Assembly: GCA_030374765.1 (NCBI GenBank)
Contig: JARGXX010000016.1
Coordinates: 1,116,001-1,180,000 of the forward strand
Reading direction: 5' to 3'
DNA length: 64,000 bases
DNA from: Agarophyton chilense
Taxonomy: Eukaryota > Rhodophyta > Florideophyceae > Gracilariales > Gracilariaceae
This document shows, piece after piece, positions 6,391 through 63,699 of the stretch. Numbering within the stretch: the stretch's first letter is position 1; each line of letters starts with the position of its first letter. The notes under the pieces were generated by a model, which searched no databases, was not told the origin of the DNA, and saw only the letters and a program-made list of their open reading frames with translations. Both the position numbers and the translations under genes were made by a program.

Positions 6391-6572
6391 TGTTCGAAGA
6401 CGAAATAATTGAGGTTTTAAATTGAATACGACAGCGTAGTCAACTACGGAATTCCTTAATAGCTTGACGTGTTTGGAAGCCGTTCACGAGATCGTGTTCC
6501 ACTCGAATTAAAGATCGGTATCGATTCCACTTTCCAGATGCGAAATATTTGGAGTAACCAACCACGGTGTCT

Positions 6573-7642: not shown

Positions 7643-8309
7643 TGTAATATTCTACTATGTCGGGGAATCCAATAGGCTGATTTTTCGCGAAGTCGTGGTT
7701 GGAACTCATAAGTGAGTGATATCATCAGACTTGTGATATGAAACGGCACACCGCGTAGGATGACAGGAGGCAGGGTACATTGTTGGAATACATGGTATCA
7801 CGAGTGGAGTGGCTTGCAACGGCGCATGTAGTGGCGATCCACGTGGCTGGTTTTACTACTCTTTGTAGCTAGACGTCCATTAGGGACCGTACCCATACAG
7901 TGGTTTGGCTAAGTGGCTGACCACTGGGTATTATTTATATGTTTATTTGGGCACTCACCCTGGTACACAGTATATAGTGTACCAGAGGTGAGCGCCGACT
8001 CCGAGTAAAGGAGACAACATGGGCATCATGACTATTCTGTTCCTCACTTAGGATTCCTTAACCGGAGATCCGGACGAGCTATAATAGACAGTCAGCCCCC
8101 AACCACTTCACGAGCAGTCTCGTACCTACGTTCCATCAACGTTTTACAGTTGCACTGTTCACCCTCGCTGGCGAGTAGTGGCCTTACACCCCATTTCCAG
8201 CTCGCTGGTGTTGTAGCTCTACCACCCCTTTTCCTTCGCCGCAAGCGACCCATCGGCAGTCCAAACGCGGTCGCAGGTGTCTGCTCTCTCCGTTAGAGCG
8301 GATACTACA
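7643..8309 (+). repeat. 5' LTR of B1
   Basis: Begins TGTAATATTCTAC and ends GATACTACA; matched by 17667-18333. It contains the inverted repeat with a TATATA core at 7951-7994, the likely core promoter. Confidence 0.93.
7951..7994. promoter_or_regulatory. inverted repeat around TATATA in the B1 5' LTR
   Basis: Arms GC-CTCACC-TGGTACAC and GTGTACCA-AGGTGAG-GC flank the loop AGTATATA. The arms pair over about 17 positions with a few mismatches. The same structure is in the 3' LTR (17975-18018), in B2 (6862-6903) and in the solo LTR (45592-45636), although the sequence differs between them. The TATA-like loop suggests a core promoter; this is inference. Confidence 0.6.
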
Positions 8310-8310
8310 A

Positions 8311-8523
8311 ATGGTCTCTCGACTTAGAACCACTGTGGTCAACTGCACTGAACAATTCGTTCCTGGAACGTGGAATCGATATCGATACTTGAAAGAAGTG
8401 GAATCACTACAGTTATTTTTTATCGAACCACCTCCGGCAATTGCGGAATTCATCGTGGTTGAACACGTGGTCGAGAAGTCGAAGACACCACTTGGTTCGC
8501 ACCTGGACTCAGGTTTGGTCTAG
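8311..8523 (+). CDS. leader ORF upstream of gag in B1
   Basis: A 70-codon frame covers the untranslated leader and ends with TAG one base before the gag ATG at 8525. Its first half (VSRLRTTVV ... GTWNRYR) is matched by the leader of B2 (VSRLRDTVV ... GKWNRYR). It may be a real upstream ORF that controls gag translation by re-initiation. Equally, it may be conserved only as the primer-binding and packaging RNA. In B2 the frame does not end beside the gag start. Confidence 0.25.
   Translation: MVSRLRTTVVNCTEQFVPGTWNRYRYLKEVESLQLFFIEPPPAIAEFIVVEHVVEKSKTPLGSHLDSGLV
8312..8327 (+). other. primer-binding site of B1
   Basis: TGGTCTCTCGACTTAG starts two bases after the LTR. TGG pairs with the CCA end of a tRNA. 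The core is shared with B2 and, in part, with family A. Confidence 0.65.
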
Positions 8524-8524
8524 G

Positions 8525-10678
8525 ATGCCGAAGACCCGAAGCCAGTCGAGTATTGGTCGCCCCGGTCCTGCGAGACCACCCCCAAAACCGAGGCTCGCCT
8601 CATCTGTTGAAAACGGAGAGCGGCTGTATCGTCAAGCGATGTCGCGCTCACGCTCGGTGAATGATGAACGAGATCTCTCGGATGTACTGGCCCCTGTGGC
8701 AGCGGCAGTTACGCCCACCACAGAAGCCGTAGTTGACCCTGAGGTCGTCGGACCTCAAGAACAGGATGATTTGCGCAGGGAAGTGTGTTGTCTCAAGTCT
8801 GAGTCAAGCGCTTCGCGTGTGCGCATGGTTGCGTTGGAATCGCAGATCGCTGCTCTTATCGCTGATGTCGAACAATTACGCAGTGCGCATCAAGCACTCG
8901 TTCGTCAAGACGATGGGGAGCAGGTCTCTGCATCAGTGAAAACACTACGTGAGGATTTGAAACATCTACTGGAGAGGTACGGGAATACGCTCGATGCGCT
9001 ATCCGGCTTAACCGTGGATGTAGAGGAAGTCCTCACTCGAATTAACCCTCGTTTAGAACGCCTGGAGGCGGCAGTTCATGCACAGACTGCTGCTAAACCA
9101 GTCGTGCTGGAAGAGAGAGAAGCTGCTTTGAAGGAAGCTCGTTCGAAGAAGTCGAAGTCACGACGTAAGAAGCGGAAGTCTGCACGTGATTCGAGCGATG
9201 AATCGTCAAGTACGGAGGGCTTCAGTTCCAGTACTGATGATTCTGATGATTCAGATACGTCAGATGACGACGACTGTGATGATGGTCATCGAAGGTCCCG
9301 ATCTCGGAAGAAGAACACGTCTTCGTGGTTAATGAGAAAAAAAGGCTCACCTTACAGAGGATTGAAGGTGCTCCCGTGCACGAATCCGCTTTATCGGAAG
9401 GTCCTGAATTACAGGTACTACCGTCTGAAGGTGAAGAGCAAGAAGCGCTCAGGACGCGAAACCGCGAAGAGGAAGGATCACATCAAACGTTTGAAGATCG
9501 GCCTTAATGATTTAACATTTGATGGGAAAACCCCCATTCTCGTTATCGAGTCTCTCACTCGATTCGTTGCCGAAGCAGACACTCTAGAGATGAGTGAACC
9601 ACAGGCATTTGTGTCTCTACCACACTTCCTGAAGGGTTTTGCTTTGGAGCAATATCGTTCCGTATGCGGATCATTGACAGCCAATGAAGACGGCGTTACC
9701 TCTGGGCCAGAGGCGGTGCAGTATTTGCTGCGCAGTTACGCGACTTCAAACGCGATACGTCAGGCGATCCTGGACCTAAGGGATGTGACCCAAAAGCCTG
9801 AGGAGGGCGAAGCTGAGTACAGCTCAAGGCTTCACAAAGCTTCAGTCCGCTGTGGAAACTTCCACTTGACGGAGGACAATATTACCTTGTACATCGACGG
9901 GCTGGACCCGAGCATCAATTCGTTGGTAGCTCGATATCGAGAGAAGCATGGAAGAGTGTCTTTTTTGGAGTTAGTTCAGTTTGCAAAAGCTGAAAGAGAC
10001 GTGGCCAGAGCGCGTGGTAGTCCCCGTCGTTCAGTGGCTTTTGGAACCTCAATCGGTAAGGAGAAGATCTCCGCCAGAGTTAATCAGCGCAGCAAACTGC
10101 TACATCTGGAATCTCCAGTGCACTCACGAGATTCGTCGTTGGCACCCTAAGGGAGTGACTCGCATGAGGAGGCGGTCCATTTAATGGAATATACGGACTC
10201 TTCTGTACCTACAGTGGATCTCCCATACTCGGAGTCTCAGGACGAGGAAGCCCTAATGGCTATGGATGGCCGTCGCCCTATGTACCGTCCCTACACGGCG
10301 CCTCCACAAGGAGGTTTTGAGAACCGGGGACCCGGATGCGTGGATACTCGCACGGCATACCGTTCACAACTTATGTTGACCAACCGTCGTGACGGTTTGA
10401 TCTGTTATTCATGTTATGGAAAACACCATTTGAGCGCAGAATGCACGCTTCCTGCAAAGGATCTGAGTCGTATCATGACGAATTATGAAGCACTCTCAGA
10501 AGAGGAAAGGAGCCGCGTACCGGCGGGCATGTATTGGAAAGCCAAAAGTTGGTTTTCTCAGACACCAATGCGCCGGACGGACAAGCCGGTTGCTCAGAAT
10601 GCTGAAGTGTTACAACCCGGAACCCCGGTAGGAAGAGGCACCTTTGAGGCGAATAAGCCGGTGCAACCGGAAAACTAA
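8525..10678 (+). pseudogene. gag: gag of element B1 (one in-frame stop)
   Basis: Structural protein of the particle. I start it at ATG 8525 (MPKTRSQSS) because B2 has the matching start. Layout: basic Pro-rich N-terminus; a predicted coiled region (about residues 75-200); a striking Lys/Arg block followed by Ser/Asp-rich acidic repeats and a second basic block (about 205-275), like a nuclear-localisation or CK2-target tract; the gag core with LYRKVLNYRYYRL; and one CCHC zinc knuckle, CYSCYGKHHLSAEC (10402-10443), for RNA binding. A TAA at 10148-10150 interrupts it, but frame and homology continue to TAA 10676-10678 (about 718 codons). B2 is open at the position of the inner stop. Confidence 0.85.
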
Positions 10679-13600
10679 GTGAGGGAACCCCTAGGGGGTC
10701 GGCACTAGTCGATCTCGTAGTGCTGACCAGGGAGAGCTCGCATCCCTGCTCCCGCGCTTGGAAGCCCAAGATTCTCTTGATGCCTCCCAAATTTCCGCTG
10801 TACGGAATCAATCCACCGGACGGAAAGCGAGTACAGTTTGACTGTGAGTTACATCGTCCTTGGAGATGTTATACTAGTCCGTCAAAACGGGAAAGTTATC
10901 TCATGGTAATGTCTAAAAGAAACTATAAAGTCTATGCCGACATCGGCTCTGACAGGAATCTGTTATCTCGTCGATTGATTATCATGGACACAGGTGCTGG
11001 TCTGAACTTTATACGAGAATCGGAGCTCGCTCCTGCTGACTTAGAACGTATTCGATTCGGTCCAGTACTGGACATCCGGGATGCCAACAAAAATGCTGTG
11101 AAGACACTGGGAACAGGTCGACTCGTGGTGCGTTTGGGACGCTTTGTAGTCCTAGTCGACTTCATCGTCTGTAAGACGTTAGCTGCACCAGTGGTACTGG
11201 GATGTGATTATTGGAACAAGATTGTCGAAGCCATTCGCCCGCGAAGAAAACTGGTGGAACTAGATGAAGGATCAATGGTACCAATTGTTCGCAAGCCAAT
11301 GCGTCGTTGCCCCGAAGCACCTCCACTTCCACCATCTATGGAATACAGGAAATCCCGAGGACGTGTCTCGCCGAGGATTCGAGTAGCGAAGAGTGCCATG
11401 CTGAAGGCGCAAACCCAACCGGGGGTTCAAGTAAGAACAGAACGACACAGACTCGTGGTAATTCAACCGAATACTCGGATGTACGAATCCCGTGGATTTC
11501 TAGTCGCTAACGGCATTGTTCAGGTTGATCCTTGTAGCCCCTTTTGGATACTAGTGAGTAACTTCACCGATAACGATTATCAGATATCGAAGAATCAGGT
11601 TGTTGCAACAGCTTTGCCTCATCCCACAGTGGTGGGCCGTACTCATATTTCTACTGCAGAAGTATTGGGACTAACCCATGTCGGTGACACAGACGAAAAA
11701 CTTCAAACTCCGTCCGGAGATCAATTGCAAACGGCAAAGGATCCAGAGAGCCTGGTCGATGAGCTAGAATTAGCACATGTGTCAGAACACTACAGAACGA
11801 AGATCAGGTCTATGTTGAAGAAGTATACATCCATGTGGAGTGGAAAACTAGGAGAGATCTCCGCTACGGAACACCACATTGATTTGGTCCCAGGGTCACG
11901 ACCCATCTCCCAACCACCCTACAGAGCGGGACCGCGAACTCGCCAAATCGAGGAGGAGAATGTCAGCAAAATGCTGGAAGAAGGAGTAATCGAAGCAGCT
12001 CAATCTGCTTGGGCCTCACCAGTGGTGCTGGTTCCAAAACCTGATGGTTCTTTACGATTCTGTATCGATTATCGGAAACTGAACGCAGTTACAGTTCGAG
12101 ATACATACCCGTTGCCTCGAATGGACGAATGCAACGAAAGATTGGGAGAAGCGAACGTGTTCACCACGTTGGACGCCAACTCTGGCTATAAACAGGTGCC
12201 TGTAGCGGAAGAAGACCAAGATAAAACCGCATTTGCGTGTCACGCCGGTCTCTACCGTTTCAAAAGGATGCCATTTGACTTCACGAATGCACCGGCTACT
12301 TTCCAGCGTACTCTGGACATCTTGCTCTCAAGATACAAGTGGAAGACTTGTTTAGTCTATTTGGACGATGTGATCATCTTTTCCCAGGATGTGGAAAGCC
12401 ATTTACGGCATGTCGAGGAGATCCTCAAAGCACTACAGAGAGCAGATATCACCTTGAAGTTCAAGAAATGCGAATGGTTCGCTGGCACCGTCCGGTACTT
12501 AGGACATGTGATCAAGCCGGGACAGCTTGCCATTCAAGAGGCAAAAATGGCGGCTCACCACGAAGTACAACCTCCGTCGACACAGAAGCAATTGCGTTCT
12601 TTCCTCGGCTTGTGCAATGTCTACCGACGATTCGTGCCGCGATACTCGCATATAGTGGCACTGCTCAACGCAAAGCTGCGCAAAAGACAACCAGTACAGC
12701 TGGAACAATTCAGACAAGCGGAAGCGGAAGCGTTCGACACGCTGAAGACAAAGATTATTACAACCCCAGTCTTGGCGCTGCCCATCCCCAACCTGCCATA
12801 CTCAGTGGATACCGATTCTAGCGAGTACCAAGTAGGGTGTGCCCTTTTTCAAACACACCCTGATGGTGAACGCAAACCCACTGGCTACTGGTCAAGATTG
12901 CTGAACGCAGCTGAGAAGAAGTATTCAGTTTCAGAAAAGGAATGCCTTGCAGTCGTTTGGGCTCTAACCACATGGCGACCGTATCTCCAAGGAGAACGTT
13001 TTACCGTCAACACGGATCATTCGTCTCTACGATGGTTACTGCCCAGTATAGACCCGTCTGGTTGTCTCATACGATAGCGATTACTCCTTTCTGAATTCGA
13101 TTTCGAAGTGAAGTATTAAGAAGGGATTGGCCACTGTCCAAGCTGATGCGCTATCGCGACTCAAAACACTGGGCGAAACCCAAGGCGAAATCGATGAAGA
13201 GATACCTTGCTTCTACATGGAGACCCATTCGCCATCTTTTGAAGAAGAAGAAGAAGAGACCCTTGATGATTATTCGGATGCAGACCCGTTCCTTGCATTA
13301 GCGGACACTGACCCTTCAGTTCAACTCGAGCGAATCTCGTGCACTGAGCTCCTCAATGAGCAACAAGCCGATACGTTTTGTGCTTCGATACGCTCTCGTC
13401 TTAACGGGGGGGAGGAGCTCCCCTTTTAACTCGATTCACAAGGAATACTGTTAAGACATGTCGAAAAGCATGATCAAATCGTGATTCCACACGTCTTGAA
13501 GAGTCGAGTACTCCATCTGGCACACTACAGCAGGCTGTCTGGTCATCCAGGAGGAATGAAGTTGTTCATGACTCTAAAAAGAGATTTTAACTGGCCTACT

Positions 13601-15499
13601 TTGGCAATGGACTGCCATGATACAGTGAGGTTGTGTGCAACATGTGCGAAGAACCGCATGAAGCTTTACAGGAAGCGGAAACCGATGACGTTATTCCAGG
13701 CGAAAGCGCCTTTACAATACGTCAGTATTGACATCCTAGGGGAATTGATTCGCTCAAGGCGAGGTTATCGCTACCTATTGGTAATCACCGACCGCTTCTC
13801 GAAGCTAGTGCGGACTGTGCCGCTGAAGCGGATAACCGCAGCCGTAATCGCACAGGCGTTTATCAATCACTGGGTATTTATATATGGACCCCCAGAAGTT
13901 CTGTTATTAGATAATGGGAAGCAATTCGTTGCGAAGTTCTTTCAGAATGTTTGCCGCATTATGGGCATTCGACACGTGTTTACCACGACCTATCATCCGC
14001 AACGCAGCGGTCAGGTCGAGCGTTTCAACCGCACGCTGATAGCAGCATTACGACACTACATCACGGACCACCTGCAAGAATGGGACATGTTTACAGATAC
14101 TCTGTGCTACGCGTACAATACGCAAGTGCATACCTTTACAAAGAGGGCACCGTTCGACCTCGTGCTCTCACGTAACCCTTCGGCTTTACCGGTTGCGCTC
14201 GACAACGAGACAGAATTGGACGCGCCGACCCCGGCTAAGTACCATCTGAAATGGAGGAATGACCTGAAGGCCAGAGCGGAAGGAGCCGCTAAGGAGTTAT
14301 CTAAGACGCAAGCTCGCTATAAGCGAAACTATGACGCCAGAAGGCGAAGAGGAAATCCGGCAATCCGAGTAGGAGGTCACGTCTTCGTGCGAGTCCAAAG
14401 ACCTGAGAAACAGGAAGAATCTCGTCATAAGTAGTTGCCGATAGCGGCTGGACCCTTCAAAGTCGTGGATCTTAAAGAAAACACAGTGGTCATCAACACA
14501 GGTGAGGACGTTGAACGTGTATCGCGCGATCGCGTTGAAGTCGCGCCTGACCCGCAAGTGGAAGTCCAGGTATCTGGTAGAACTAAGAAGGCAAGTGCGA
14601 CGGAACGTGAAGGCAAAAGCCCAAGTGACTCTGGGGAGAGTGAACCGCCACCAATGGCTCGAGCGGAGGAGAAAGCTCCTGATCTCCCACCGCAAGCGAT
14701 TGCGTACGCCAATCACGGACAGCTTCCGAAATATCGGGATATGCCCCGTGGACCGCGCACACCCGTAAGTACAGAAATGGAACCTGAAAGCAGGAAAGAT
14801 GTTTTGGACTTTGGCCCCAAGGACTTGGAAACGAGTGCACGCGAAAACGAGCCGTTGCCGCTTCTGGCTGAACCGTCAGATGAAGCGCCACTTGCTGTTC
14901 CGCCGATATCGGCTCCCATACCTCGTAGGCAGTAAGAAGAAGAGGTATCGCCTCCTGTCGTAGTGCAAGCACTATCGCCCACCGAACAGCGGTCAGAATT
15001 GGAAAAACCAAAGGAAGTTCATCCACGAATGGAATTGAGAAGTAGCAAGAAGTACGCTTGTATGGAACCTGGAAAACAGGATAGCTCTTTATCTGGGAAA
15101 GGTTCGCAAGGAATAAGTACAGTGTCCCTGCAGGCAGAACGACAGTTAGTCGACGAGCGAACGCTTAGCGACGCTGAGACTGCTAACACAGAGACGCTCG
15201 GGTCAGCCCTAAGGCATTTCAAACCTGTTAACAGGAGTCTCGCACCAACAGCGAAAGCATTGGGAAACGCCCAGGAATATGTTATGGATCGCATATGTGA
15301 ACATGGCGAGCATGAAGATACTAGATAATTACTGTATCGAGTCCGTTGGTACGGTTTTCCTTCGGAAGCGGATACGTGGGAACCTATAGCTCATATCCTC
15401 CGTTCGCAACTCGTGCGATATCATCGACGCATTAGATTACCACTCCCCAGGGAGATCGACTCCTCGGTAGTCGGGCTCATGGGCATATCTCATTTCTAA
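10657..15499 (+). pseudogene. pol: pol of element B1: protease, RT, RNase H, integrase, chromodomain
   Basis: Polyprotein for reverse transcription and integration. The frame opens at 10657, overlaps gag by 22 bases and lies in the -1 frame relative to it. Aspartic protease DTGA is at 10987-10998. Reverse transcriptase has YLDD at 12358-12369. RNase H follows (DTDSSEYQVGCALF and later ECLAVVWAL). Integrase has a His-His-Cys-Cys zinc site (HYSRLSGH, CATC) and acidic residues at 13730, 13910 and 14018 (35 residues between the last two). A chromodomain ends it (YVMDRI ... YRVRWYGF ... DTWEPI, 15280-15440), which may steer integration to marked chromatin. Damage: TAG 13075-13077 (normally Trp), a one-base shift near 13115, TAA 13427-13429, TAG 14432-14434, TAA 14933-14935 and TAA 15326-15328. 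Confidence 0.92.
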
Positions 15500-15522: not shown

Positions 15523-15758
15523 AACTCGAAAGGCGAGAAGAAAACAATAAATCATGAAGAGGAAACGTGAAGACACGCAAGCAAAGGACATTTACTGATT
15601 ATCACCTATGCCAATCTCGAGAAGCGAGAAGAAGGATTGAAGAACTCGAGAAGCGAGAAGGGAAGTATGAAACTCGAGAAGCGAGAAGAAGAAGTTAAGA
15701 ACTCGAGAAGCGAGAAGAGATGAAGACTAGAAGATAAGAATAGAACGTGAAGACACGA
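15523..15758. repeat. cluster of five CTCGAGAAGCGAGAAG repeats
   Basis: Copies of CTCG-AGAAG-CGAG-AAG lie at about 15523 (variant), 15615, 15644, 15672 and 15701, with unequal spacing. Two copies of AACGTGAAGACACG (near 15563 and 15743) bracket the cluster. Each unit could form a small hairpin. The cluster falls between the converging ends of pol and the antisense ORF, so a role in 3' end formation is possible; that is inference. Confidence 0.8.
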
Positions 15759-15827
15759 AGTCACCGGAGTTTATTAGTATCCAGATACCACCGCAAGGGT
15801 GTTGACTAGGAGTCTTTTCTAGGATCA

Positions 15828-17642
15828 TCAAAGAGACGTGCGAGCACGCAGGTTCGCAAAAAGCTGTGCGCGATCACCCTCAACTTGGTCCACGGGAAAG
15901 ACCGCGTCTAAGAGGAACTGCCTCAGCGGATCCAAGTCTAGATCTTCGACTGGCACTGCACTCGGTTGTTGGGTAAACCCATGAGAGTACTCTTGAGCAA
16001 CTCCCGCCGCTGCGGATTGATCGACGGAAGTCGTTACGCCTGCCAGCTCTGGCTCGTCCTCGTAACCGAGTTCAGCCTCAGCTCCCGGCGCTTCCTCATA
16101 CGGTTCCTCTCCGTTCTCGGATGGAGTACCATCGTACACGTATCCAGTAAGCTGGTTCGGTGGCATGTCATGCGGGTTCTCCCGAAGAAAGCAAGCCTGC
16201 TCGGAGGCGATCAACTGGCGCGTCCAGGGTTCGTACCAAACGAAATCTCCAGCACTTGCTGTTCGTCCAGGAGAATGGTCGTGGCGTCTTGCACGGGTTC
16301 CGCGAGCGGATTGATCAGCTGGCACTCCAGACCAATCGACAATGTCTATCAAATCCACAAGATGGAGGAAGTCGGCATGGTTCGCACGGGATCCCAGGAC
16401 AAGGGAAAGATCGAGTTCTCTCGCATACTTTCGCGCTGTGGCCGACATGTACCAAACTCTAAAGGTATCATAAGCATCCCACAGGAGGAAGACGGCCATC
16501 TTGGCGATAAACTCGGTATAAACCACCGTCCAATAACCCGAGAGCGGGTCGTTAACCAACGCGGAACAAATGTAGGAGATCGTCGGTGGGAGCTCCACAG
16601 GGCAACCACGAAGACTCTCGATCGCCGCCCAATGCTCCGGAATACCGATGTAGCGCCCGAAGCGCGCGTTCCGCCGGATGCGGTCAATCTGGATCATTTG
16701 ATACGGCACCAAATAGCCCAAACGCGACCGAGTACGACGTTCCAAACAGGGATAATCCCAATAGGGAATGTCACGCTTTCGAAGGAAGCGAAAATCCGCA
16801 CGGAGAAGAGGATGCTGAAAGCAGAGAGCTGCATCACGCACACCGCGAACACCGCGCCAACCGCTAACATCGACTTCAACGAGAGTCTCGATATACGAGT
16901 AACCTTCACCGTCGGTACGGGCTAGTTCCCAGTCCTGCGGGAGGAGAACCGTACTGATGAATCGGTGAAGACGCTGGTAAATCAGCTTGGTGAACCGCGT
17001 ACGGGCTTCGGACAAGGTTTCCGTTGAATATCGTGCAATTGCGTTGTCTGGCAAAGCAATATGGCTCGCCCAGTCGTCGCTATAAATCGCGTGTTCCGGA
17101 ATACCGTCAGGGAAGTACCCACCGTGTACATACTGTTGTATCAACGCGTCATCACGGATAGCAACTGGATCAAACGAGGGCGCTTGCGCGAAAAGTTCAA
17201 CGTTGTCGAGAGGATCTTGTCCATAGAAATCCGCAGGGTGCGGGTAGCTCCGCTGAGCACGACGAGAAGGAGCTCGGATCACACCCGCAGAGGCGAGGTA
17301 AGCCGCGTTCGGCATCGGAGCCACGGTTGGCTGAGGTAACGGTACCGACCGGAATCCGGTGTAAGGTGTGGGGAACGAACGGTATGGACCGAGTTGAGCA
17401 GTGGACTGCGTCGCATAACCCGCAGTGTTAGACGGAGCCCCAGAAGGCACATCCTCGGAGGAGGGCTGAAACGGGTTGGACCCGGCGTTCGGATCCATCG
17501 CGAGAGATCGAGCTGAAGAGCGGTGAGGAACAGAATGCTGTTGAGAACTGTAAGAGTTGGTCGGGCGGCGAGGAATTCGTGATGACGATGAGTACCCGGA
17601 ACACCGGTCCGACTGCGTATAAACGCTTCTTGCGTCCCCCAT
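15828..17642 (-). CDS. antisense accessory ORF of element B1, 604 aa, unknown function
   Basis: A single uninterrupted minus-strand frame from ATG 17642, 25 bp inside the 3' LTR, to a stop at 15828. The first ~130 residues are rich in Ser, Pro, Gln and Tyr and probably disordered. Residues about 130-430 are a folded-looking core rich in Trp, Tyr, Arg and Leu (NAIARYS, TLVEVDVS, LLRADF, YQMIQIDRIRR, HWAAIESL, GYWTVVYTEF, DIVDWS). The tail is acidic and Pro-rich. I see no zinc finger, protease, methyltransferase or envelope features and no signal peptide. The core aligns in blocks with the opposite-strand relic of A2 (56755-58536). It would be transcribed from an antisense promoter in the 3' LTR. 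Plant LTR elements with antisense accessory genes are known (Grande, for example), but I cannot link this protein to them. Confidence 0.75.
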   Translation of the reverse strand: MGDARSVYTQSDRCSGYSSSSRIPRRPTNSYSSQQHSVPHRSSARSLAMDPNAGSNPFQPSSEDVPSGAPSNTAGYATQSTAQLGPYRSFPTPYTGFRSVPLPQPTVAPMPNAAYLASAGVIRAPSRRAQRSYPHPADFYGQDPLDNVELFAQAPSFDPVAIRDDALIQQYVHGGYFPDGIPEHAIYSDDWASHIALPDNAIARYSTETLSEARTRFTKLIYQRLHRFISTVLLPQDWELARTDGEGYSYIETLVEVDVSGWRGVRGVRDAALCFQHPLLRADFRFLRKRDIPYWDYPCLERRTRSRLGYLVPYQMIQIDRIRRNARFGRYIGIPEHWAAIESLRGCPVELPPTISYICSALVNDPLSGYWTVVYTEFIAKMAVFLLWDAYDTFRVWYMSATARKYARELDLSLVLGSRANHADFLHLVDLIDIVDWSGVPADQSARGTRARRHDHSPGRTASAGDFVWYEPWTRQLIASEQACFLRENPHDMPPNQLTGYVYDGTPSENGEEPYEEAPGAEAELGYEDEPELAGVTTSVDQSAAAGVAQEYSHGFTQQPSAVPVEDLDLDPLRQFLLDAVFPVDQVEGDRAQLFANLRARTSL

Positions 17643-17666: not shown

Positions 17667-18333
17667 TGTAGTATTCTACTATGTCGGGGAATCCAATAGG
17701 CTGGTTTTTCGCGAAGTCGCGGTTGGAACTCATAAGTGAGTGATATCATCAGACTTGTGATATGAAACGGCACACCGCGTAGAATGCCAGGAGGCAGGGT
17801 ACATTGTTGGAATACATGGTAGCACGAGTGGAGTGGCTTACAACGGCGCATGTAGTGGCGATCCACGTGGCTGGTTTTACTACCCTTTGTAGCGAGACGT
17901 CCATGAGGGACCGTACCCATACAGTGGTTTGGCTGAGTGGCTGACCACTGGGTATTATTTATATGTTTATTTGGGCACTCACCCTGGTACACAGTATATA
18001 GTGTACCAGATGTGAGCGCCGACTCCAAGTAAAGGAGACAACATGGACATCATGACTATTCTGTTCCTCGCTTAGGATTTCTTAACCGGAGATCCGGACG
18101 AGCTATAATAGATAATCAGCCCCCAGCCACTTCACGAGCCGTATCGTACCAACGTTCCATCAACGTTTTACAGTTGCACTGTTCACCCTCGCTGGCGAGT
18201 AGTGGCCTTACACCCCACTTCCAGCTCGCTGGTGTTGTAGCTCTATCACCCCTTTTCCTTCGCCGCAAGCGACCCATCGGCAGTTCGAACGCTGTTGCAG
18301 GTGTCTGCTCTCTCCGTTAGAGCGGATACTACA
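17667..18333 (+). repeat. 3' LTR of B1
   Basis: 667 bp, TGTAGTATTC...GATACTACA, about 96% identical by eye to the 5' LTR. It contains the TATATA inverted repeat at 17975-18018, about 340 bp upstream (in antisense direction) of the start of the antisense ORF. Confidence 0.93.
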
Positions 18334-23245: not shown

Positions 23246-26200
23246 TTAATGTTGTGGTCGTTTGTTGTAGAGCTTCAGTCTTCGGGCATGAATTCCTTTG
23301 CGAGACACTCTCCTAGCTGACGACACTAGTTGATATCGCGGATGATTCGCCTTAATGACACGGCATGGCCCATAGAACCTTGTGACATAAGCAGGCCATT
23401 TGAAAGAAGGATTGAGTGCTTCTCCTTTCATGACTAGGACCAGATCTCCAACTGAGAACCTATGGCCGTAGCGAGAGTCATCTTTCCTAATCGGCTGGCG
23501 AGCTACTCGCATCGCCGTACCGACTGTAGCGGCCTGAACTTCGATCCTTCGATGTTCTTCATGAGGAAACTTTACTAATTCACGAGGGTCACTGCGATGC
23601 ATGCGTGGAGGACATCCATACATCAGTTGGAAGGGTGAGAATCCTTCCCTCAGTTGTCGGCTTCTATATCCAAACAGAACCTCGGGGAGTGCGTCGTCCC
23701 ATTCCATATTTTTTCCATGTACGATCTTCTCAAGGGCCTTCTTGATAGTCCCAACCATTCGTTCTGCACGCCCATTCGACATCGGGGCGTAAGCCAGCAC
23801 AGGCTTCAATTCAATGCCGTTCTTGGTCAAATATTCCTGAACGGACTTGGCTAGAAACGAAGTTGCATTGTCTGACACGATAGTTCGCGGGTATCCAAAC
23901 GGACTCTTGATCTCGCTTCTAATGAATTTGAGGACCTCCGTTGCCGTAGAGTATCTAGAGGCTACTGCTATAGGCCATACAGTCAAGTGTTCTACTCCAA
24001 TTAGCAGGAATCGGTTGCCACTCTTCGTCGGACGGTACGGTCCAGCAAAGTCGATGGAGAAGTTGTGAAACACATCCGTAAGAGGAGTTCTTTGACCAGC
24101 GCGGTAAGATGGATTGGGTCCCATGAACTGGCATGCTTTGCAGCTTTTGACATATTCCACGATATCGGACACGACGTTTGGCCACCAGAATCTTTCACGG
24201 ATAAATCTACGAGTGGTCCGCAAGTCCCAATGTCCTATGTCATCATGAAAGGTCTTCAGCAACCTAAGCCTTTCAATCACGGGTGGAACCCATCGAAGAC
24301 CGGCACCGGTTCTTCGATACAACAACCCGTTCCACACCATGAAATTCTTGCTACTTCTCTTCGTGGCTGCTACCATCTTAGGGTCACTTTCCTTCATCGG
24401 CATCATACTCAAATGTCGACCAATGTCCGCGTAGAAGTCTTCAATCTCCTCAAACGTGGTATCGGTCTCGACGGTCATGGTCGTGGCAACATCTTTTTCT
24501 TCTCTTTCAGTGTTTTGGGCAACGGAGTATCTAGACAAGTAGTCGGCTGCCCTGTTCTTGGCTCCTGGTCTGTAGACAATCTCGAACTCATACTCAGCGA
24601 GATAGTCCAACCACCTAGCCAGTCGGCCATGAACATCCTTCTTCTTGAATGCATACTTGAGGGCTTGATGATCAGTGAGCAACTGAAAGGGCTGAGTTCC
24701 AAGGAGATACATCCTGAACTTTTTCAATGCGAAGATAACTGCAAGCGCTTCTTGTTCACAGACTGCATACCTTCTTTCTGCCGCCGTCATCGTTTTACTG
24801 GCGTACTGTATCGGATGAAACATCCCATCCGATTTCTTCTGCGCGAGGACCGCTCCCGATGCAACGGAAGAGGCGTCGGTCTCAACACGAAAAGGTACAC
24901 TGAAGTCCGGGAATGCTAACACAGGCGGGCTGGTAAGTTTCTGCCTAAGTGTATTGAAAGCTTCCAGCATCTCATCGGTGAAATTCAATTTGCGGTTGCC
25001 AGTTATTGAAGCATGAAGTACAGCAGCCGTGTCGGCAAAGTGGGTGATGAATCGTCTGTAGTACCCAGCCAATCCTAAAAAGCTTCTGAGTTCAGTGGTA
25101 TTGGAAGGGATCGGGGCCTGTTGAATAGCTTCAATCTTCTTTGTGTCAACGGCCACGCCGTTCTTATCCACTACGTGCCCCAGGAGTTCTATCTTTGGCT
25201 GACCGAAATGACACTTGGATATCTTCAGCTTCAATCCATGTGACGCTACAATTCTCAACACGTATTCAACATGTTCGACATGCTCTTCCAATGACTTGGA
25301 GAAGATCACTACGTCGTCGATGTAAACGCGGGCGAACGGTACCTTGCTGAGAATGGAGTCCATCATTCTTTGGAAGGTTGACGGAGCGTTCATCAGACCA
25401 AAAGGCATGACTTCAAATTGAAACGTTCCCTGTCTGCAAATGAATGTCTTCATTTCCTTGCATTTGGGCGACATCCTTATCTGCCAATACGCAGAGAAAA
25501 GGTCCAAGGTGGTGAAAAATTAACAACCTCCCAACTCGTCAAATATCTGCTCCATGTGCGGCGGAGGCCAGCGGTCAGCTTTCATCCCATTATTCAACGG
25601 TCTGTAGTCAATGCAAAACCTTGGTCTGCCATCCTTCTTGGTAGCTATGACCACAGGAAAAGACCAGGGGGTAGTGCACGGCTTGATTATGCCGGCTTTT
25701 AGCATCTTGTCCACTTCCTCTCGAACAACTTGGTCATATCTGGGCGGGAGTCTTCTAACTCTTGAATGGAGCGGGGCATCACATGTCACTGTGAACTCGT
25801 GCATGACAGGAACATTGGTCGGTCTGAGATCATACAAAGACCATGCTACAACATCGAGGCTCCCCAGAATGGAACGGATCCGGTCTTGTACCTCATTAGG
25901 CAAATGGACAAGTCTTTCAACAATCAATTCTTTCTGACTCGCATCTGGCGCAGAGTTCTCGATGACAGTCGAGCTCTCATCTCGTTTCATTTTCGTGGGC
26001 ATTTGCCATGAATACTCATCTTCGGATTGTGGGCACACAATGTCACCCTGACTCATGCAACCAGCCACACATATTTTCGCGGACTTTTCCCAATTTATGT
26101 CGGGGTTCGTATCACCTCGGCCAATTCTTGCTTCCGAATCTTCCCCCTTCTGTTGATGCAATCTTTCGCCAGTTTCTGCGGGTGGTCTGTTCGGATCCTT

Positions 26201-28039
26201 GACTTCTCCACCCACGGAGAGCGGGGGCCGACTCGTATTCTCTTCAGGTGGTAGTTCTTCTTCAAATGAGATCACATAATGACCATCGTCATCTTCCTCA
26301 ATCATTCCAGTACGATTAAAAGGAAGGTTGTGAGCTCCCAAGTGAGGCGGATGAGCAGGTAGGGGAACAGGGTATCGAATCCGGATACAAACCTCCAGAA
26401 AATCGTCTATTGGTTCTCCTCCCTCTTTTGGCAGCAATTGAACCTCATCCTTAATCGGGATAGTAAGGATGGGATCACGGTAAAGGGGGGTCTCGGACAT
26501 CTGCATTTCTTCAGGAGAGGAATGGGCACTAACGTTCTCTTGGTCAGCATCGTCCATCAAGACGAGGCCCACCGTGTCTCTCGGCTGAACGCTAGTGTCC
26601 GTAGAAGAACTGTGAAACGATGACGGGTTCGGGCCTTCAAGGGCTAGCTCACCACCACCCTCGCGTTCTGCTGTTGCTACAGGTGGCGCGTAAGACAAGT
26701 CTTCATCTCCAATCTCCGGGATAGGCCATCCGGCTTCAAACCGAACAATCTGTTCTCCCTGGTCGTCAAGCTCTAAGACGCTTATATTTCCATATGGTAG
26801 ATCTCCAGTTTCAGCATGTATCGGGTCACCTGGCAACAATTCGGGGTAGCGACGATAGACCCTGAAAATGAGGCTATCTGGGTTTCCATCAATGTCTTCA
26901 GGATGCAGAAGAACAACGTCATTTCTTACTGGAAGAATGAAATGAGGATCAGGTAGAGGAGAACCATCAGAAATTTCATGGTCCGTCTGCTCATCCAAGG
27001 CTTCTTGCACTTGTACTTGCTCAGCGACGGCCTATTCTATCTGCTCCAGCTCGACAGAAGGCAAGGCGGGCTCGTCTTCTAATGTCCAAGTTGGACACAA
27101 ACTCTCAATCTCGGCCATGTCTAAGGGACGCACTGTAGCCAAATCATGCCAGTAAGTAATTTCTTCTGCTGCGTCATAGTCTGGGAGTCTGCTCAGAAAT
27201 TCCCTGCTTCAAGAAGGTGGGAAACCGCTGTCTTGAATGGTCGCCAACGCGTAAGCTGAAGTACTAAGATTCTTCTTCTTATCGTGAATGGGTTCCTCTT
27301 CTTCCTCGGTGCTGCTATCAGAAATCAAAGCATCAGTGTCGGAAGTGAAGTATGCACTATCTGTAGATGACAGTTCGACGAACAAATCGGCTCTGGGCCG
27401 ATGGTAGTCCAGCGGCAAAGTCGTGGCCTCGTCATCGAACTTCATCGATACTTGTTGCGTTCAAAGGCCAAGACAAGCTTGTACTGCTTCTAACGTGGGG
27501 CATCCAACAATCAAATGAAAGGGTGGATTTTCTACCACCAAAAAATCCAAAGGTACTCGCAGAGAACCAAACTCAATCGGCACGTTCTTCAATCCACCAC
27601 GAACCAACGACTTTGCCCCGTCTGCTACCACTATTCTTCTATTGGAAGGCCTCATCTCTAGACACAGTCTGTGACACAACGCAACGGACATCAGATTGGG
27701 TATAGCCCCTGAGTCTAACAAGGCCTGAGCCTTGGTTCCATGCACGGAGACATTGACAACCTTCAAAGACGGGGGCAAGGCCTGCGCGTGGGCGTAATTG
27801 ATTCTTCGCCCGGAAAAGCTTCCAGCTAGTATGCGACGAAGGTCTTTCTTTGCTTGCTCAGCGTCTCCACGAGCTAACTGACCAAAGGTTAATCCTGAAG
27901 GAGCCTTTGCTAGCTCCTCATAAGCATTGTATTTCGCGATGTTCCTGAATTTTGACTTTCTTCGACTTGGCTTTCGTGGTCTTCGAAGAGGTTTTTCGAG
28001 CTTTGGAGGAAGCTCGAGGGGTACTTCTTCCAGTTGGTG
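23246..28039 (-). pseudogene. pol: pol of element C1: protease, RT, RNase H, integrase
   Basis: The frame opens after TGA 28040-28042 and overlaps the end of gag by about 120 bases in the +1 frame. Protease has LLDSGA (near 27720). Reverse transcriptase spans about 25850-25100 with YIDD near 25320. RNase H carries DTDASS-like ETDASSVASGAVLA and the HQALKYAF region. Integrase has a His-His-Cys-Cys site (HDDIGH ... CKACQF) and the acidic residues in SIDFAGPY, VSDNATSF and NGRAERM. The C-terminus has a short basic tail and no chromodomain. In-frame stops: TGA 27461-27463, TGA 27209-27211, TAG 27032-27034 and TAA 25520-25522. The last falls just before the conserved FFTTLDLFSAYWQI block of the polymerase. 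Apart from these the frame is continuous, so decay is recent. Confidence 0.93.
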
Positions 28040-32929: not shown

Positions 32930-33915
32930 GGTGTGAGGCGGAGAGGCGGAGAGGCGACGCAAGGCGCACGGTGCTTTTTGTGCGCGTGAGAGCAGGCAGA
33001 GGTACAAAGGGCCAGGTAGAGCTACGACGGGCCAAGGGTGGAGAGGGAGCGGGCAGGCGCGAGCAGCAAGGACGCGTGGGAAGACGTGCCACTCGCGTGC
33101 AGGGTGGTCATTCACGAGCACAGCGGCGGCGGCATGGGGGTTGAGGGAGGGCACGAATGTTACAACGGCGGGGCGGCGAAGAAACGGGCGAAGAGCGGGA
33201 GGTGGGGGGGGGGGGCAAGGGGTGTGACCCGACAGCAGCCACAGCGGGCGCTTGAGAGCACAAGACGTCTCGGAAAGGGTGCGTTGGTACAGACAAGACG
33301 CACACAAAGCGAAACGCAACCGACCACGGTTGGTCCTCCTTGTGTTGCTGTTCATGTTGTTACACGGAGGTGCATGTTTTGGGCTGAGCAGCCGCACGCC
33401 GCCGCAGACCACTCCAGGGCCACCCAGCGCGTGGCCATAGGCCGTGCCGCCATTGGCCGAACCGCAGGGTTGCGTTCCGTCCAACAACCAATGCGCGCCG
33501 CGCCTCGCGGCAAGCTTCGAAATGAAGGGCGTGTCATTCTGACAGCCAGCCGCCCTAACCATTCCCCCCCTCCCCCCCCCACGCTCTGCCGCAATGCCGC
33601 ACTACTTACATTACGCACGCGTCGCGCACGCGCGTGTTCGCCATCTGCCCCATCTCAACACTCCGCTCCCCCTCGTATAAAACTGCCTCTCCCCCCCTTT
33701 GCTCTTGTTCAACTCGTCCACTCTTCTCCCCCACCGCGCACCCCCCACCTGCCACTCCTCACCTCACCCGTCTCCTTTCGCGCTTCTTTCTTCTTCCTAC
33801 TCCTCGTTTCGGCCCTCCCGCCGCGCTTTTCACCATTACGGACACCCCCAATCGCCGTGCCTCCCCCTGTTCTTGCGCCCTTTCCACCTGCAAGTCTTGT
33901 TCACAACCTTCCCCA
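32930..33915. promoter_or_regulatory. divergent promoter region between NAPRT and the C2H2 gene
   Basis: About 1 kb of GC-rich sequence. It has an inverted CCAAT (ATTGG, 33452-33456) and a CCAAT (33488-33492) within 40 bp, followed by GCGCGCCGCGCC. A TATA box at 33676-33682 faces the plus-strand gene. Runs of twelve G (33204-33215) and of C (33545-33580) occur. The CCAAT pair could serve both genes. Confidence 0.5.
33676..33682 (+). promoter_or_regulatory. TATA box of the C2H2 gene
   Basis: TATAAAA, about 235 bp before the chosen ATG, followed by a C/T-rich stretch as in many leader regions. Inferred from sequence alone. Confidence 0.45.
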
Positions 33916-55837: not shown

Positions 55838-56283
55838 TGTAACGCAATGATTGGTAGGTCAGCGTACTGGTCTCAGCCTGGCGTAGCGTGATAGAGCGGG
55901 TCCTAAGGTTCGTATCCTTAACGGCAGCACTTCCAGAGTACTTGGTGCAATGGGCAGGCGTTGACTGTGTACTCCTATAGGTCGGAGCTACGAAAACGAT
56001 TGCTTGAAGACCAATTGGTCGAACTAATGTACCAAATGGGGTTTTTTAGTATCCTAACGGTGCCTACCTGATTCCAAGGGAGAAGCGTCTCTCGAGCCAA
56101 GTAAATATCGATGGCGAAGTGCTGGGATCTCCCTCGCACTGGAAAGCTATCCTATTTCAATAACCAAAGCACAACAATTATCTAACTATGTCCAGCAAAG
56201 GTCGGCCAGTCCACGTGGCGTCTGTAGGATAGCTCAGGCCCTGGCTGCTTACAAAAGTCAGCCCTAATCGTTGCTCTTTCACA
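55838..56283 (-). repeat. 3' LTR of A2
   Basis: 446 bp, TGTAACGCAATG...TTTCACA on the plus strand; pairs with 63248-63694. Confidence 0.92.
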
Positions 56284-56754: not shown

Positions 56755-58536
56755 TTGTCTCTCCGTCACGTCGTGGTATTTCTCCATTGGTCGCGCGCGA
56801 TGCCGCACTCGTCTTATAAGCCCGTTGGATACGCAACTTTCTCTCCGGACTTTGTCGCTTCCGTTTGTTTCCCTATCCATTTACCGGCGGACCAACCTGT
56901 GGGCAGCGGCGCCATGGCTTCAAAAAACCAAGCGGGGAGTTTCTCGGGATAAAAATTGGTTTATAAGCGCCCTAGGGACTGCTATGACCATATCATCGGA
57001 CGAAATACGCGGGCCGTGCGTCATGCCATTCTGCCGTTCTCTGTGGAAAGATACCAGAGGTTTTGTCATGGGTATATCTCTGCCCAAAGGTTCGCCAAGA
57101 TCCCCAATTTCCAGAAGAGCAGTAATAAGGCGCGCAACGTCTCTTGCTAGAACCATTGGGTGCATTGTCTTGTGGATCCGCGTTCGGCGACGCGCTGTCG
57201 CACCCTCATCCAAGCGGACATGACGTAAGTTCATTGTGAGGAGGAAGCCGAGTACCAGTTCAGGGTGAACAAACACCTTTCAGACCTACACGCGGACTTC
57301 ATCTCACCCCATGTGAGATTTACGTCGGCGGGTCACAACTTCTTTGCGCTCATTTGCTTCCGACCGCCGTATTACCGCCTGCTTTGGATGTTCAAAAGGG
57401 TCTATTGGAACCAGATGCACAAGCCCGATGGTCGTTTGCGTCAATCCATGGAGCTCTTGTTCAGTTGGCACCAGGTGGAGATTCACAACATGAGCGCAGA
57501 CAAACGTCCTTCGTTATATCTCTCGCTTCCCCACGAGGATGAGAACCAATGAGCCCTGAACTGGCGTATCTCGCCGCTCTTTTTGGTTCCCACGCCGTAC
57601 GTAGTGGCGTATCATTCGTCCCAACTCATGGGCGATGACAATGAACGAAGGTATTGGTTGTCCTGGCAGGGACTCTTAATCGAGTTCGGCGTGATACCCC
57701 TTATGGCCTTCCTGGATACCGGGAAGTACGGAGTCCGTGGTAATTTCCGTTCGGATGAGTGGAGGGTATGGCACGACGGGCACCTACCTGGTCCTCGATG
57801 TCGTCTGATCCCGCTTCCGGACATCATGATTCGTTTCCTAAGGAACCTGGGCATCCAACATATCATCCGTGAAACCAAGTTCGCCGTCAAGGAGGCCTAG
57901 CACCTTTTGGATCATGTCCTACAGGTGGATTGGAGCAAGACTCCCAGGTTTCTTTGGCATGACCACGATACCGACTCGTTCAGACCGATTCCGCTACATC
58001 CCCGAGGTCAGGATGACACTCGTCCTTATCCATCCAAGCCTTTGAGTAATCAACCATCGGACATTCCAAGGCGTCATGTGCCTGAGTATTATCCTAAGGG
58101 CATTGGTTTCGATACCATTGACTTCGAGCCTAACTTGGAAGCCTCGCTGTTAGTTTCTGCTGGTATGTCCGATGGAGAATACTTCGTTGAAGAACCCTTC
58201 ATCCTACCCGTGGAGGGCGTCAATCCTCCGATCGAGTCTGCCGTTGTGTTGCCGACCGCTTCCCCTCCTCCAGCTCCTCCAGGCGCTGCTCCTCAGGATG
58301 AACTCTCAAACGAGCCGCCCGTCGCCCAAGTGGACATCCCTTCTGGAGAGGTTACTGTCGAAGCCAAAAGCCCTGTAGGTGATGAGATGGCTCAGACGTC
58401 CACTGTGGGCGTCGATGTCGCTCCGTTCTCTCCATTGTTACATTTTCCCGCTTCGGTCACGGCTGCAGCCGCGGATTCCGTCATATCTGCCGTACCGTTG
58501 GTATTACTGCCTCGATGTAAATTGCGAAAGTCATGA
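56755..58536 (+). pseudogene. antisense accessory ORF relic of element A2
   Basis: Plus-strand open segments from 56755 to 58536 are all in one reading frame (about 594 codons), interrupted by TAA 56950-56952, TAG 57148-57150, TAA 57226-57228, TGA 57550-57552 and TAG 57898-57900. The core aligns in order with the B1 antisense protein: ILPFSVERYQRF with LPDNAIARYS; TLIQADMT with TLVEVDVS; LHADF with LRADF; WNQMHKPDGRLRQ with YQMIQIDRIRR; RYWLSWQGLLIEF with GYWTVVYTEF; VDWS with VDWS. The tail is acidic and Pro-rich in both. It lies in the same place and orientation as in B1. The N-terminal part toward the LTR (56284-56754) is too decayed to frame with confidence. Function unknown. Confidence 0.7.
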
Positions 58537-59214
58537 GTGAAGCTTGCTCTTGGGCACGTCGTTCGGCGCGCTACACCGTAAATGTCCAACAGAGTCAAAA
58601 TCTGAAGACCGCTATGGTCAATTTCATCTGGAAAAATGCACAAATGTTGTCCAAGAGGGTTACTGCCGACTTGGATGCCCGATATGGTCTGAATTTGAGT
58701 GACTGGAGGCTTCTGAGGGTGAAAATAGTTCCTCAGGTGAATCTCCGCCAAAAAAGCGTGCTCGTCTTGCTAGTGCCAGTCCTATTGGTACAGTGGGACC
58801 CTCGTTTGATCTTAGCCCTGATTTCGATTCTGCAGGTTCCAATATGAACGACGGAGTTACTCCGGCTCCGCCCGACTGAGCCTTGTTGGTGTTCGGAGCG
58901 CTTTCGCGAACCTTCAGGTCATGGCGAGGGCTGCTAGGTGGCTGCTAGTTAGTTATATAAAGTAATGCTTGTGCTTTCCCAACGTTTCTCTTGTATTCAT
59001 CCAACGTGCGTGCCCCGAGACGGTGTCCGAACCTTTAGAGCTTCTCAGGTCTTCCTCAGGTATCGCTTGAGGATTGACGTTGTTCCCTGATACGGGAGCT
59101 ACGACGAACCGTCGTGTCGGGAGGTGTATCGAGAGGCGTTTTTGGAGGCGTTTTGGTATTATTCGGACCAATGGTTGCCCGCCTTCTGAAGGCTGCGCTC
59201 CGTGCTGCCGATTT

Positions 59215-61910
59215 GGCCCCAATAGCAAGCGATAAAATTAGGTGGAATGATCTGAGGCTGTTTCTAAGTGACTTCATCGGGAGAATAGCCGGACCAATGG
59301 ACGCGATAGCGCATTATCTGATCTTCTCCTCAATTGGCGGAGAAGAATCGTTCAATCACGTATTCCTGTTGGTGTTTCTCCTCTGGAAAGAGAGTGTGGG
59401 CCAGAGGGGCGAATTCATCGGAGTCGGTTGGGAGAGATGGGTCATCGTCATTGGCTTTGACTAATGGGTCCATAGGGACAGTCGGGTACGCGGATATTGC
59501 CCTAGAAGATGTTGGGACTGGAGCCTCGACCTGAGGACGTGGTGATTTCGTCCGGCCAAGGGGCTGGGATATTGGTGGTCTGAAGGAACTGAAAGCTCGT
59601 GTCACTCGATCAATAGACATGGTCTCCTGTAGGCCGTCATTTAGTATCGTAATTGTGTGTTGACCGGCCTTAAGGACTTTATATGGTCCTGTCGAGCGAG
59701 GTAAGAGTTTCCGCGTAGTATCCTGGAGGTCATCACTCTCTTTCAGTGGCCGGTCCAGGTAAACCAAGTCTTCTCTCTCTGTGTTCCATACGGTTTTGTC
59801 GAAATTGACCTTGTCGCGCCGTTGGGCTTTGGTCAGTACAGCTCTAGCCGATTGGATAATGCTGTCGATACGTCGGCGCGAATAGCGCTTCACCTGAGTA
59901 GGAGTCATTTCTTAGGGTATGTCCTGGGGTATAATGGACTCCTGAACTTCTACGGCTATCGGCGGTGGCGATCTCATTAGCGTTAAATCGAAAGTTGTTG
60001 TCCCCGTGGAAGCGTGTACTTGCGTGTTGTAGGCATAAACCTGTGGTTCAACACAGTCGTCCCAATCAAATTGGTGCTCCTTTACGTAATTTGCCAATCG
60101 GTGCAGAAGGATACGGTTGAAGCGTTCGGCTTGGCCAATGGTTTACGGGTAGTACGCCGTGTGAAAAGAATTTGTATTCAAACTGGCTGACATTATACGT
60201 AAGGAGGTAGAGTGGCATTCTACATGGATATAATCAGTGGGACAAGAAGGCAGTGGCCACATCCGTGGCTGTTGTGTTCTTCTGGGGTAGGGATCCGGTA
60301 ACTTTAGAAAACCTATCGGTTATTACCAAGACGAACCGTTTCGCATTGGACGACTTGGGCAAAAGGGCCAAGTATATCCATTTTGACAAATTCCATCGTG
60401 CCTGCGGTGCGGAAAAGTTTCAATTTGGCATGATGGTTGAAGCGAGACCCTCGGATTTGTGCGCTCGAAGCGCAGCTCCGTGCGGTCTGCCACAGGTCTT
60501 GCGCAATTAGTGGCCAGTATAACAACTTCCTTAGGGTCTTGTACATTTTTCAGCCTCCAGAGTGACCAGCGAAGCGAGGGAAATGGGCGAGGTATAGGAA
60601 TAGCGCCCTTAGTTACCTTGGTTCTGTACAATGGAGTGCGCCATCCAGTGGTGAGCGGCGACACAGTAGTCATAATTGGTTGTAGTCGAATAAGAATCCA
60701 AGGATTCCTACGACTCAGGCCGTTTTCTTGCAGTACTCGTCTTCGACCTGCGCCTGTAGGAGTTTCTCAATGGTTATAGAGAGAAGCTCTTTTTTTGTCT
60801 GGGGTTATTGCATTAACCTGAGGTGGTGTCAAATTGGTGGTACTGTCTCCCAGTCCAATTGGTATTCTTCGTTCTCCTTTACCTTAGGATCCTCCGATTG
60901 CATTTTACCCATAAAGTCACTCGTTTCCGTATAGCCCTGAGGTCCATCATCTGTGAAGGGATTAGGAATGAGGTCGTCCAATGGAGTGTCATCAGTTCCG
61001 TCAGTAATGATTGGCGACAGGGCATCTGCTGCCTGGTGCTTGATGCCTGGCCTATAAGTTATATCATAGTCATACTCTGACAGCTGAACGCGCCATCGAG
61101 CGATGCGACTTGATGCATCGGCGAAATTGAGTAACCAGCAGCGTGAATCGTGGTCTGTCCTATTGGTGAACCTAGTTCACTCGGGGTATGGTCGGAGTGT
61201 TAATACAGACTATACTATGGCGAGACATTTTTTTCGGTAGTACTCTAGTTTCGCTCCGTCCTGGTAAGCGCTCTGCTCTAGTATCCAATAGGTCGATAAT
61301 CCTTTTGTGACTCTTGTTCTTGTAGCAGTTCACATCCCACTTGGACATCAGAAGCGTCTGTGTCCAAGACAAATGGCCTATTGGGTTTTGGTTAAGCCAG
61401 TATGGGTGGGTTTAGCAATTTGTCCTTTAGGGTCTGAAATGCCTGATATTGGTCCTCGGTAAGGCATTCAAACTCCGAAGGTGTTTCCATCTTCGAAATT
61501 GCGGTTAGAGGGGCCGAGAGGTTAGCCAGTTCTTGGACGAAATGTCGGTAGCCATTGCACAAGCCCAAAAAGGATCGTAGTTCCGTGTGGGTTCTGGGGG
61601 GTTTAGCCTGGCGGATCGCATCGCTGGTCCGTTTGGCTACCTTTAACTTTCTTTATAGGACGACGTGACCGAGATAGTGCACTGAGGCCTGAAAGAAGGC
61701 GCATTTGAGGAGTTTCAGTGTTACTCCAGTGTCCTGTAGGATTTTGAGCACCGTTCTCACGTGGCGAAGGTGTTCCATCATGGTTCGGGAGAAAACTTAT
61801 ACGCCACCTAAATAGACCAGGGCGAATTTCCATTTGACTCTGGACTGACGCATTATTTAAACCAAAAGGCATACAAGTAAATCTGAACCGATGTTCTTGG
61901 GTGCTGAGGA
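59215..61910 (-). pseudogene. pol: pol remnant of element A2
   Basis: Scattered minus-strand frames read as one decayed polyprotein. The RT starts mid-domain at FTCMPFGLNNA (near 61870). An RNase H piece is in shifted frames around 61370-61200. An integrase with a damaged Cys pair (SCASSAQIR) and the first acidic residue in FVKMDILGPFA lies at 60546-60313. The region with YAYNTQVHAS (60097-59912) follows, then a 192-codon C-terminal piece (59908-59330) ending EYVIERFF. Beyond its stop the frame continues with RYRVHWSGYSPDEVT, a chromodomain in which the conserved Trp after DEVT is TAG (near 59243). The N-terminal part of RT and the protease are deleted. Confidence 0.8.
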
Positions 61911-63694: not shown

Positions 63695-63699
63695 ATTGC

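Follow-up and report, generated by a model that had tools for sequence, protein, structure and literature searches.

A probable antisense accessory gene conserved among chromodomain-bearing Ty3-type retrotransposons of the red alga Agarophyton chilense

INTRODUCTION

Antisense genes lying between pol and the 3' long terminal repeat (LTR) are known from the plant retrotransposons Grande, RIRE2 and Retand and from the fungal element Boty (PMC7264820, PMC11963269). As described in PMC7264820, accessory genes of this antisense kind occur in LTR retrotransposons of flowering plants and one fungus, and there is no consensus on what they do or where they came from. Grande GENE23 is nuclear and has its own promoter (PMC7264820), Retand TRP28 is predicted to bind DNA and is near-universal in its lineage (PMC11963269), and an antisense promoter is located in the 3' LTR of human T-cell leukemia virus (HTLV) (PMC7264820). 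Here, we describe a gene in the same position in B1, a chromodomain-bearing Ty3-type element of the red alga Agarophyton chilense (Gracilariaceae), and a relative of it in a second element, A2, both situated in a 64,000-nucleotide stretch of contig JARGXX010000016.1 (positions 1,116,001 to 1,180,000; hereafter the window) that is part of the 79.8 Mb genome searched. In HTLV-1, HBZ is an antisense gene near the 3' LTR that is transcribed from an antisense LTR promoter and encodes a nuclear regulator. An antisense gene of Boty is reportedly the subject of a 2011 article by Zhao, going by its title.

The B1 gene shares its placement, antisense between pol and the 3' LTR, with the plant open reading frames (ORFs) grouped as aORF-3R (Grande GENE23, RIRE2 and PvRetro13; PMC7264820), but differs from them in its red-algal host, its chromodomain-bearing carriers and the lack of any Pfam family above the cut-off. 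Place and orientation are likewise shared with the antisense TRP28 (PF04195) of Retand (PMC11963269). However, Retand belongs to a non-chromovirus lineage of flowering plants, whereas a chromodomain is present here and a Pfam scan of the antisense proteins did not find PF04195. The brtn gene of Boty (Botrytis cinerea), an additional gene that a fungal LTR element carries in antisense, is alike by description (PMC7264820). HTLV-1 belongs to an unrelated virus group and resembles B1 in gene position and orientation. Env-like accessory ORFs follow pol in the sense direction, and the gene here, being on the opposite strand, falls outside that class. Accessory genes of DNA transposons, which are different elements, have been described in red algae, and a brown alga has one encoded on the strand opposite its transposase (PMC12477816). 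A literature search confined to openly licensed papers found, among the titles, abstract openings and passages listed, no description of an antisense LTR-element gene in red algae, in agreement with the initial annotation of this DNA, which knew of none for such elements. The architectural slot is known; the protein family, the chromodomain-bearing carriers and the red-algal range look new.

RESULTS

An antisense gene between the chromodomain and the 3' LTR

The ORF at 15828-17642 on the minus strand is very probably a true protein-coding gene, accessory to chromodomain Ty3-type elements and under purifying selection. Four families (B1 with B1b, C, A2 and D) have the gene or a relative in antisense orientation past the chromodomain and before the 3' end, and the two protein types follow the reverse transcriptase (RT) tree. 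The initial annotation had reported 604 codons opposite gag-pol, flanked by the chromodomain and the 3' LTR, and this arrangement was recovered in B1:

7643..8309 (+): 5' LTR
8441..10150 (+): gag-like ORF, assigned by position alone (no Pfam gag match)
10720..13077 (+): protease-like region (below cut-off), RT and RNase H (Pfam)
13481..14434 (+): integrase, H2C2 and rve (Pfam)
15278..15421, approximately (+): C-terminal chromodomain of pol, interrupted by one in-frame stop (PF00385, E 8.5e-9)
15616..15726 (no strand): tandem array of period 29 with 4 copies, with the chromodomain on one side and the antisense gene on the other
15770..15775 (-): AATAAA, ~55 nt past the antisense stop codon (motif search)
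15828..17642 (-): antisense accessory gene, 604 aa (ORF, genome matches, homologs and substitution ratios)
17667..18333 (+): 3' LTR, starting 24 nt past the antisense ATG

The stop codon (15828-15830) faces pol and the ATG (at 17642, in the context GCGAACCATGGGG) faces the 3' LTR, so that the gene is antisense to gag-pol with pol on one side and the LTR on the other, as in aORF-3R. The 19-base stretch GAACCATGGGG around the ATG is identical in 16 of 28 B1 loci and one base off in the remaining 12, two of which have lost the ATG. A purine tract, AACGAGGGGGG, stands immediately ahead of the 3' LTR. The two LTRs agree in 639 of 669 alignment columns (2 bases ahead of each included), and the bases flanking them (GGGGG and GGAGG) agree at four of five places, which leaves B1 with a degraded target duplication or none. 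Assignment of B1, together with the A2 relics, to the Ty3-type class follows from the order RT-RNase H-integrase, a chromodomain C-terminal to the integrase, and the LTRs.

An AATAAA occurs within ~100 nt past the antisense stop codon in all 28 B1 loci, the window copy included, and past the stop codon in all 10 A2-type loci examined of 12 (L009 and L015 were left out).

Copies in the genome and linkage to retrotransposons

The antisense gene is present in many copies, for which all genome match counts given here are lower bounds. The B1 protein matched at least 73 places at 88%-100% identity, nearly all at full length; 15 of these were stop-free in the match, although four of the 15 were equal in score and are possibly mutual duplicates. 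With the A2 relic as query, at least 97 places were found, the other 96 at 63%-73% identity, and six of the 97 were stop-free in the match. A further group, B1b (query P0007), accounted for 33 of 99 matches listed, at ≥71% identity, the remaining 66 being B1-like at 64%-67%.

At loci found through the antisense protein, the opposite strand carried an integrase and/or chromodomain in 28 of 28 cases for B1, counting the window copy, in 9 of 10 for B1b and in 11 of 12 for the A2 type (the exceptions being L044 and L010); therefore, the genes at these loci sit in elements. We also made the converse comparison, in which the first 75 matches to the B1 RT were set against the best 150 of 1,417 antisense candidates. 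At least 41 of the 75 RT matches had an antisense match downstream on the opposite strand, or at least 43 when four rows from the match lists of the B1 protein and the B1b query were added; both figures are lower bounds and concern B1-type elements only. The RT-to-gene distance, measured to a core fragment, was mostly ~3.6 kb. The gene is thus present in most copies of the family, as in aORF-3R; had most members lacked it, the initial annotation would have counted its claim refuted.

Elsewhere on the same contig, an RT sharing 99% identity with the B1 RT (G000:C16:1590561-1591199; the next RT is 92% identical) was accompanied by an antisense match at the expected position (G000:C16:1587162-1588349).

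Constraint on the antisense reading frame

Between B1 and B1b (280 pairs), the nonsynonymous substitution rate (dN) was 0.265 and the synonymous rate (dS) 2.07, giving a dN/dS of 0.13 that is approximate because dS is saturated (~2); shifted frames gave 1.5-1.6. Codon-position counts tell the same story, with differences of 0.26, 0.21 and 0.56 at positions 1, 2 and 3 between the window copy and 10 B1b loci. For the frame on the opposite strand whose third positions coincide with those of the gene, the value of 0.28 is expected from the frame geometry. Moreover, dN of the antisense protein was 0.25-0.29, compared with 0.33-0.56 for the integrase tail and chromodomain, in 8 of the 10 B1b loci (L044 and L047 were dropped for too little sequence).

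Ratios within families were less telling, which is why contrasts between subfamilies were relied on. Within B1 (325 pairs from an alignment of 26 of the 28 loci; L004 and L038 were left out by a length filter), the antisense frame gave a dN/dS of 0.67, the frames shifted from it 0.79 and 1.04, and those of the opposite strand 0.75, 0.70 and 1.13. The power of this test is low, since the B1 copies form a star-like set (mean identity ~95%) and differ mostly by post-insertion decay; for the integrase of 16 B1 copies, the ratio was 0.55 (shifted, 0.87 and 0.98). Within B1b the ratio was 0.60 (shifted, 0.84 and 1.04). The 12 A2-type loci gave 0.41 among themselves, compared with 0.95 and 1.34 for the shifted frames and 0.49 for one frame of the opposite strand. 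The initial annotation had regarded a dN/dS near 1 across many copies as fatal to a functional gene, and such a value was seen neither within B1, weak as that test is, nor between subfamilies.

A remote homolog in element A2

A2 lies on the minus strand of the window, with gag pieces also on that strand, and carries the following features:

55838..56283 (-): 3' LTR, with the target duplication ATTGC at 55833-55837
56800..58870 (+): relic of the antisense gene, broken by stops and by a frameshift near 58482 and running counter to gag-pol
59267..59413 (-): chromodomain relic (tblastn with the B1 chromodomain, E 0.001)
59798..60621 (-): integrase relic
61096..61844 (-): RT/RNase H relic
63247 (approximately)..63694 (-): 5' LTR, with the target duplication ATTGC at 63695-63699

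ATTGC on the outer sides of both LTRs places the relic inside the element, as had been argued originally. The place and orientation first assigned to the relic also hold, while its extent (56755-58536) required revision: homology begins at 56707 and runs across the frameshift to 58870. The first ATG in frame is at 56800, which puts it ~516 nt away from the LTR.

In direct local alignment, the A2 relic scored 85 against B1, whereas 500 shuffles averaged 41 and reached no more than 62. Profile-profile alignment (hhalign), spanning B1 residues 271-441, gave a score of 64.5 and a probability of 93, compared with ≤25.3 for 60 column shuffles. The resemblance therefore beats the shuffled controls that the initial annotation had proposed as a check. 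The sequence blocks it had paired fared unevenly, as YW...EF and VDWS fall inside the profile alignment and agree, LHADF/LRADF is out of order, and TLIQADMT/TLVEVDVS lies outside. Judged by these alignments, the A2 relic is a true remote homolog of the B1 gene.

Relatives in further families and in databases

Flanks were read after nine of 150 listed chromodomain matches, chosen by eye mostly for long open frames. Family C (L053 and L055; GC fraction 0.59) has a B-type antisense relative, with one in-frame stop in L053 and more damage in L055, and family D (L057 and L058; 0.58-0.59) has an A-type relative (E 1e-18 and 4e-17). The conserved antisense gene initially proposed as common to two chromodomain families is thus supported, with relatives in two more. 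One further flank (L059) was a B1 copy, and L051 is, by reading of its flank, a host CHD-like remodeler gene. In L056, another pol came next, on the opposite strand. A 31-residue match on the sense strand of L052 (E 0.002) was regarded as chance. The GC-rich C and D families share a genome with the AT-richer B1 and A2, a contrast that suggests different mutational histories.

An RT tree of seven rows, all from this genome (one C and one D element; A2 rows covering 158 and 203 of 213 residues), separated ((B1,B1b),C), with support of 0.998, from ((A2,A2),D), with support of 0.82; the outgroup was an element at 24-26 kb of the window without a detectable homolog of the antisense gene. Because the two protein types follow this tree, joint descent of RT and antisense gene is suggested, and most simply the gene would already have been in the common ancestor of the B1/B1b, C, A2 and D elements.

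Protein database searches returned 11 matches to the B1 protein and 15 to its 12-row profile, at identities down to 27%-38%, and the motifs YW.V, LLW..YD, DW, GDF..YDP and LR.NP..MPP...GY are kept in most homolog rows. Close annotated homologs of the B1 ORF are from A. chilense, and none of the database matches bore the name of a fungus; the intact A2-type protein L010 had only two database matches, both from A. chilense. No Pfam family was matched at E ≤ 1 by P0001, L010, P0009, P0011 or P0012, and P0008 had two unrelated matches, both below the cut-off. PHROG gave no match for five proteins, PDB sequences gave none for P0001 (the sole query), and no relatives were found in viral contigs or prokaryote genome contigs, searched with one peptide pattern each. 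A low-confidence structure model predicts a disordered N-terminus, a helical core (residues ~136-434), a small strand pair near 467-478 and C-terminal helices at 570-603.

Other features of the window

Another Ty3-type element (23246-27010, minus strand; RT, RNase H and integrase) is ~37% identical to the B1 pol, and neither a chromodomain match nor an antisense-gene homolog was detected in it. A second gag (4735-6459, minus strand) is 54% identical to that of B1 and has no B1-like pol match nearby in the window. Host genes encode a nicotinate phosphoribosyltransferase (31325-33562, minus strand) and a Ras/EF-hand protein (36610-38550, plus strand), the latter Miro-like in make-up.

DISCUSSION

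The antisense ORF of B1 is best read as a selected accessory gene of its element, and conservation by selection suggests that the elements depend on the protein. Several observations weigh against this reading or against particular parts of it. The selection signal within B1 is weak (0.67) and most copies are broken; 32 of the 75 RT matches have no antisense match among those listed; and three of seven non-B1 flanks (L052, L054 and L056) have no clear antisense relative, the L054 flank following an open frame of 1,823 aa, equal in length to that of the L053 element. The D-family match is limited to L010 residues 414-647, the C-terminal part of the A-type protein. There was no fold match, and a scan of 19 proteins for a classical nuclear localization signal gave no match in B1 and basic matches in four. 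Lastly, the AATAAA signal is not universal, because B1b loci lack it (none of 10 has AATAAA in the 110 nt past the stop codon, and two have AATAAA or ATTAAA at 125-141 nt), as does family C (0 of 2 within 200 nt, one locus being too broken to place the stop codon).

The anatomy suggests that the antisense gene would form a transcription unit of its own. A separate transcript fits because AATAAA follows the stop codon in the B1 and A2-type loci, where it would end the antisense transcript ahead of pol. In B1, transcription would most likely start in the U3 part of the 3' LTR, an antisense promoter there being predicted because the ATG lies 24 nt from the LTR. The product may act in the nucleus on the chromatin, transcription or integration of its own element. 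We favor this role of nuclear accessory regulator, if only tentatively, because of the analogy with Grande GENE23, Retand TRP28 and HBZ. The initial annotation had put forward a silencing suppressor, an RNA-binding partner or a nuclear import factor as possible roles.

A rather unlikely alternative is that the protein has its own transcript but a structural role, or one associated with particles, in packaging, assembly or spread. The family's proteins are large (~550-750 aa) and long conserved at the env position, and maximum 19-mer Kyte-Doolittle hydropathy reaches 1.7-2.1 in A-type and some fragment proteins (1.82 in L010 and 2.08 in P0018). However, the B1 maximum of 1.22 is under the usual membrane threshold, the gene is antisense, L010 carries KKRAR near its C-terminus, and the antisense proteins had no capsid or env match.

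It is improbable that the ORF is a host gene, whether captured independently by separate elements or still a host gene with elements beside it. One homolog (P0015, on a 145 kb contig of Gracilariopsis chorda) is indeed annotated simply as a hypothetical protein, but the many copies, protein types that follow RT clades, and tight spacing from the RT argue otherwise, and among the listed matches to the 75 RTs, none was on the same strand or upstream, although no search was aimed at copies outside elements.

Very little speaks for an antisense transcript that tunes element activity via double-stranded RNA, with the ORF incidental. Antisense RNA regulation of retrotransposons is treated in PMC7264820 and mentioned in PMC4007536, but the codon-level constraint between subfamilies and the motifs kept by homologs at 27%-38% identity largely refute it as the sole explanation. 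Chance resemblance between A2 and B1 ORFs of unrelated origin is hardly credible either: identity is only ~25%, and in raw comparison with six B-type proteins L010 exceeded all 200 shuffles for just four (P0001, P0008, P0009 and P0010, failing for P0011 and P0012), but P0008 scored 112 (shuffle maximum 61) and P0010 scored 96 (shuffle maximum 58), and the profile-profile score is far above its shuffled range.

The selected accessory gene favored here represents an independent case of the antisense arrangement, with a different protein, chromodomain elements and a red alga as host, and with at least ~200 matches in three groups (73, 97 and 33). Recurrence of the same slot with a protein that matches no known domain suggests that the slot, together with an LTR antisense promoter, is a general opportunity for LTR elements. 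The deep and diverse family also offers a starting alignment for work on structure and function. More speculatively, and with considerable doubt on our part, the antisense gene could be an ancestral, nearly lineage-defining part of red-algal chromoviruses, with a novel fold perhaps viral in origin and a 3'-LTR-driven antisense program controlling host silencing via chromatin. If so, these elements would pair a targeting module, the chromodomain, with a dedicated regulator of chromatin encoded in antisense.
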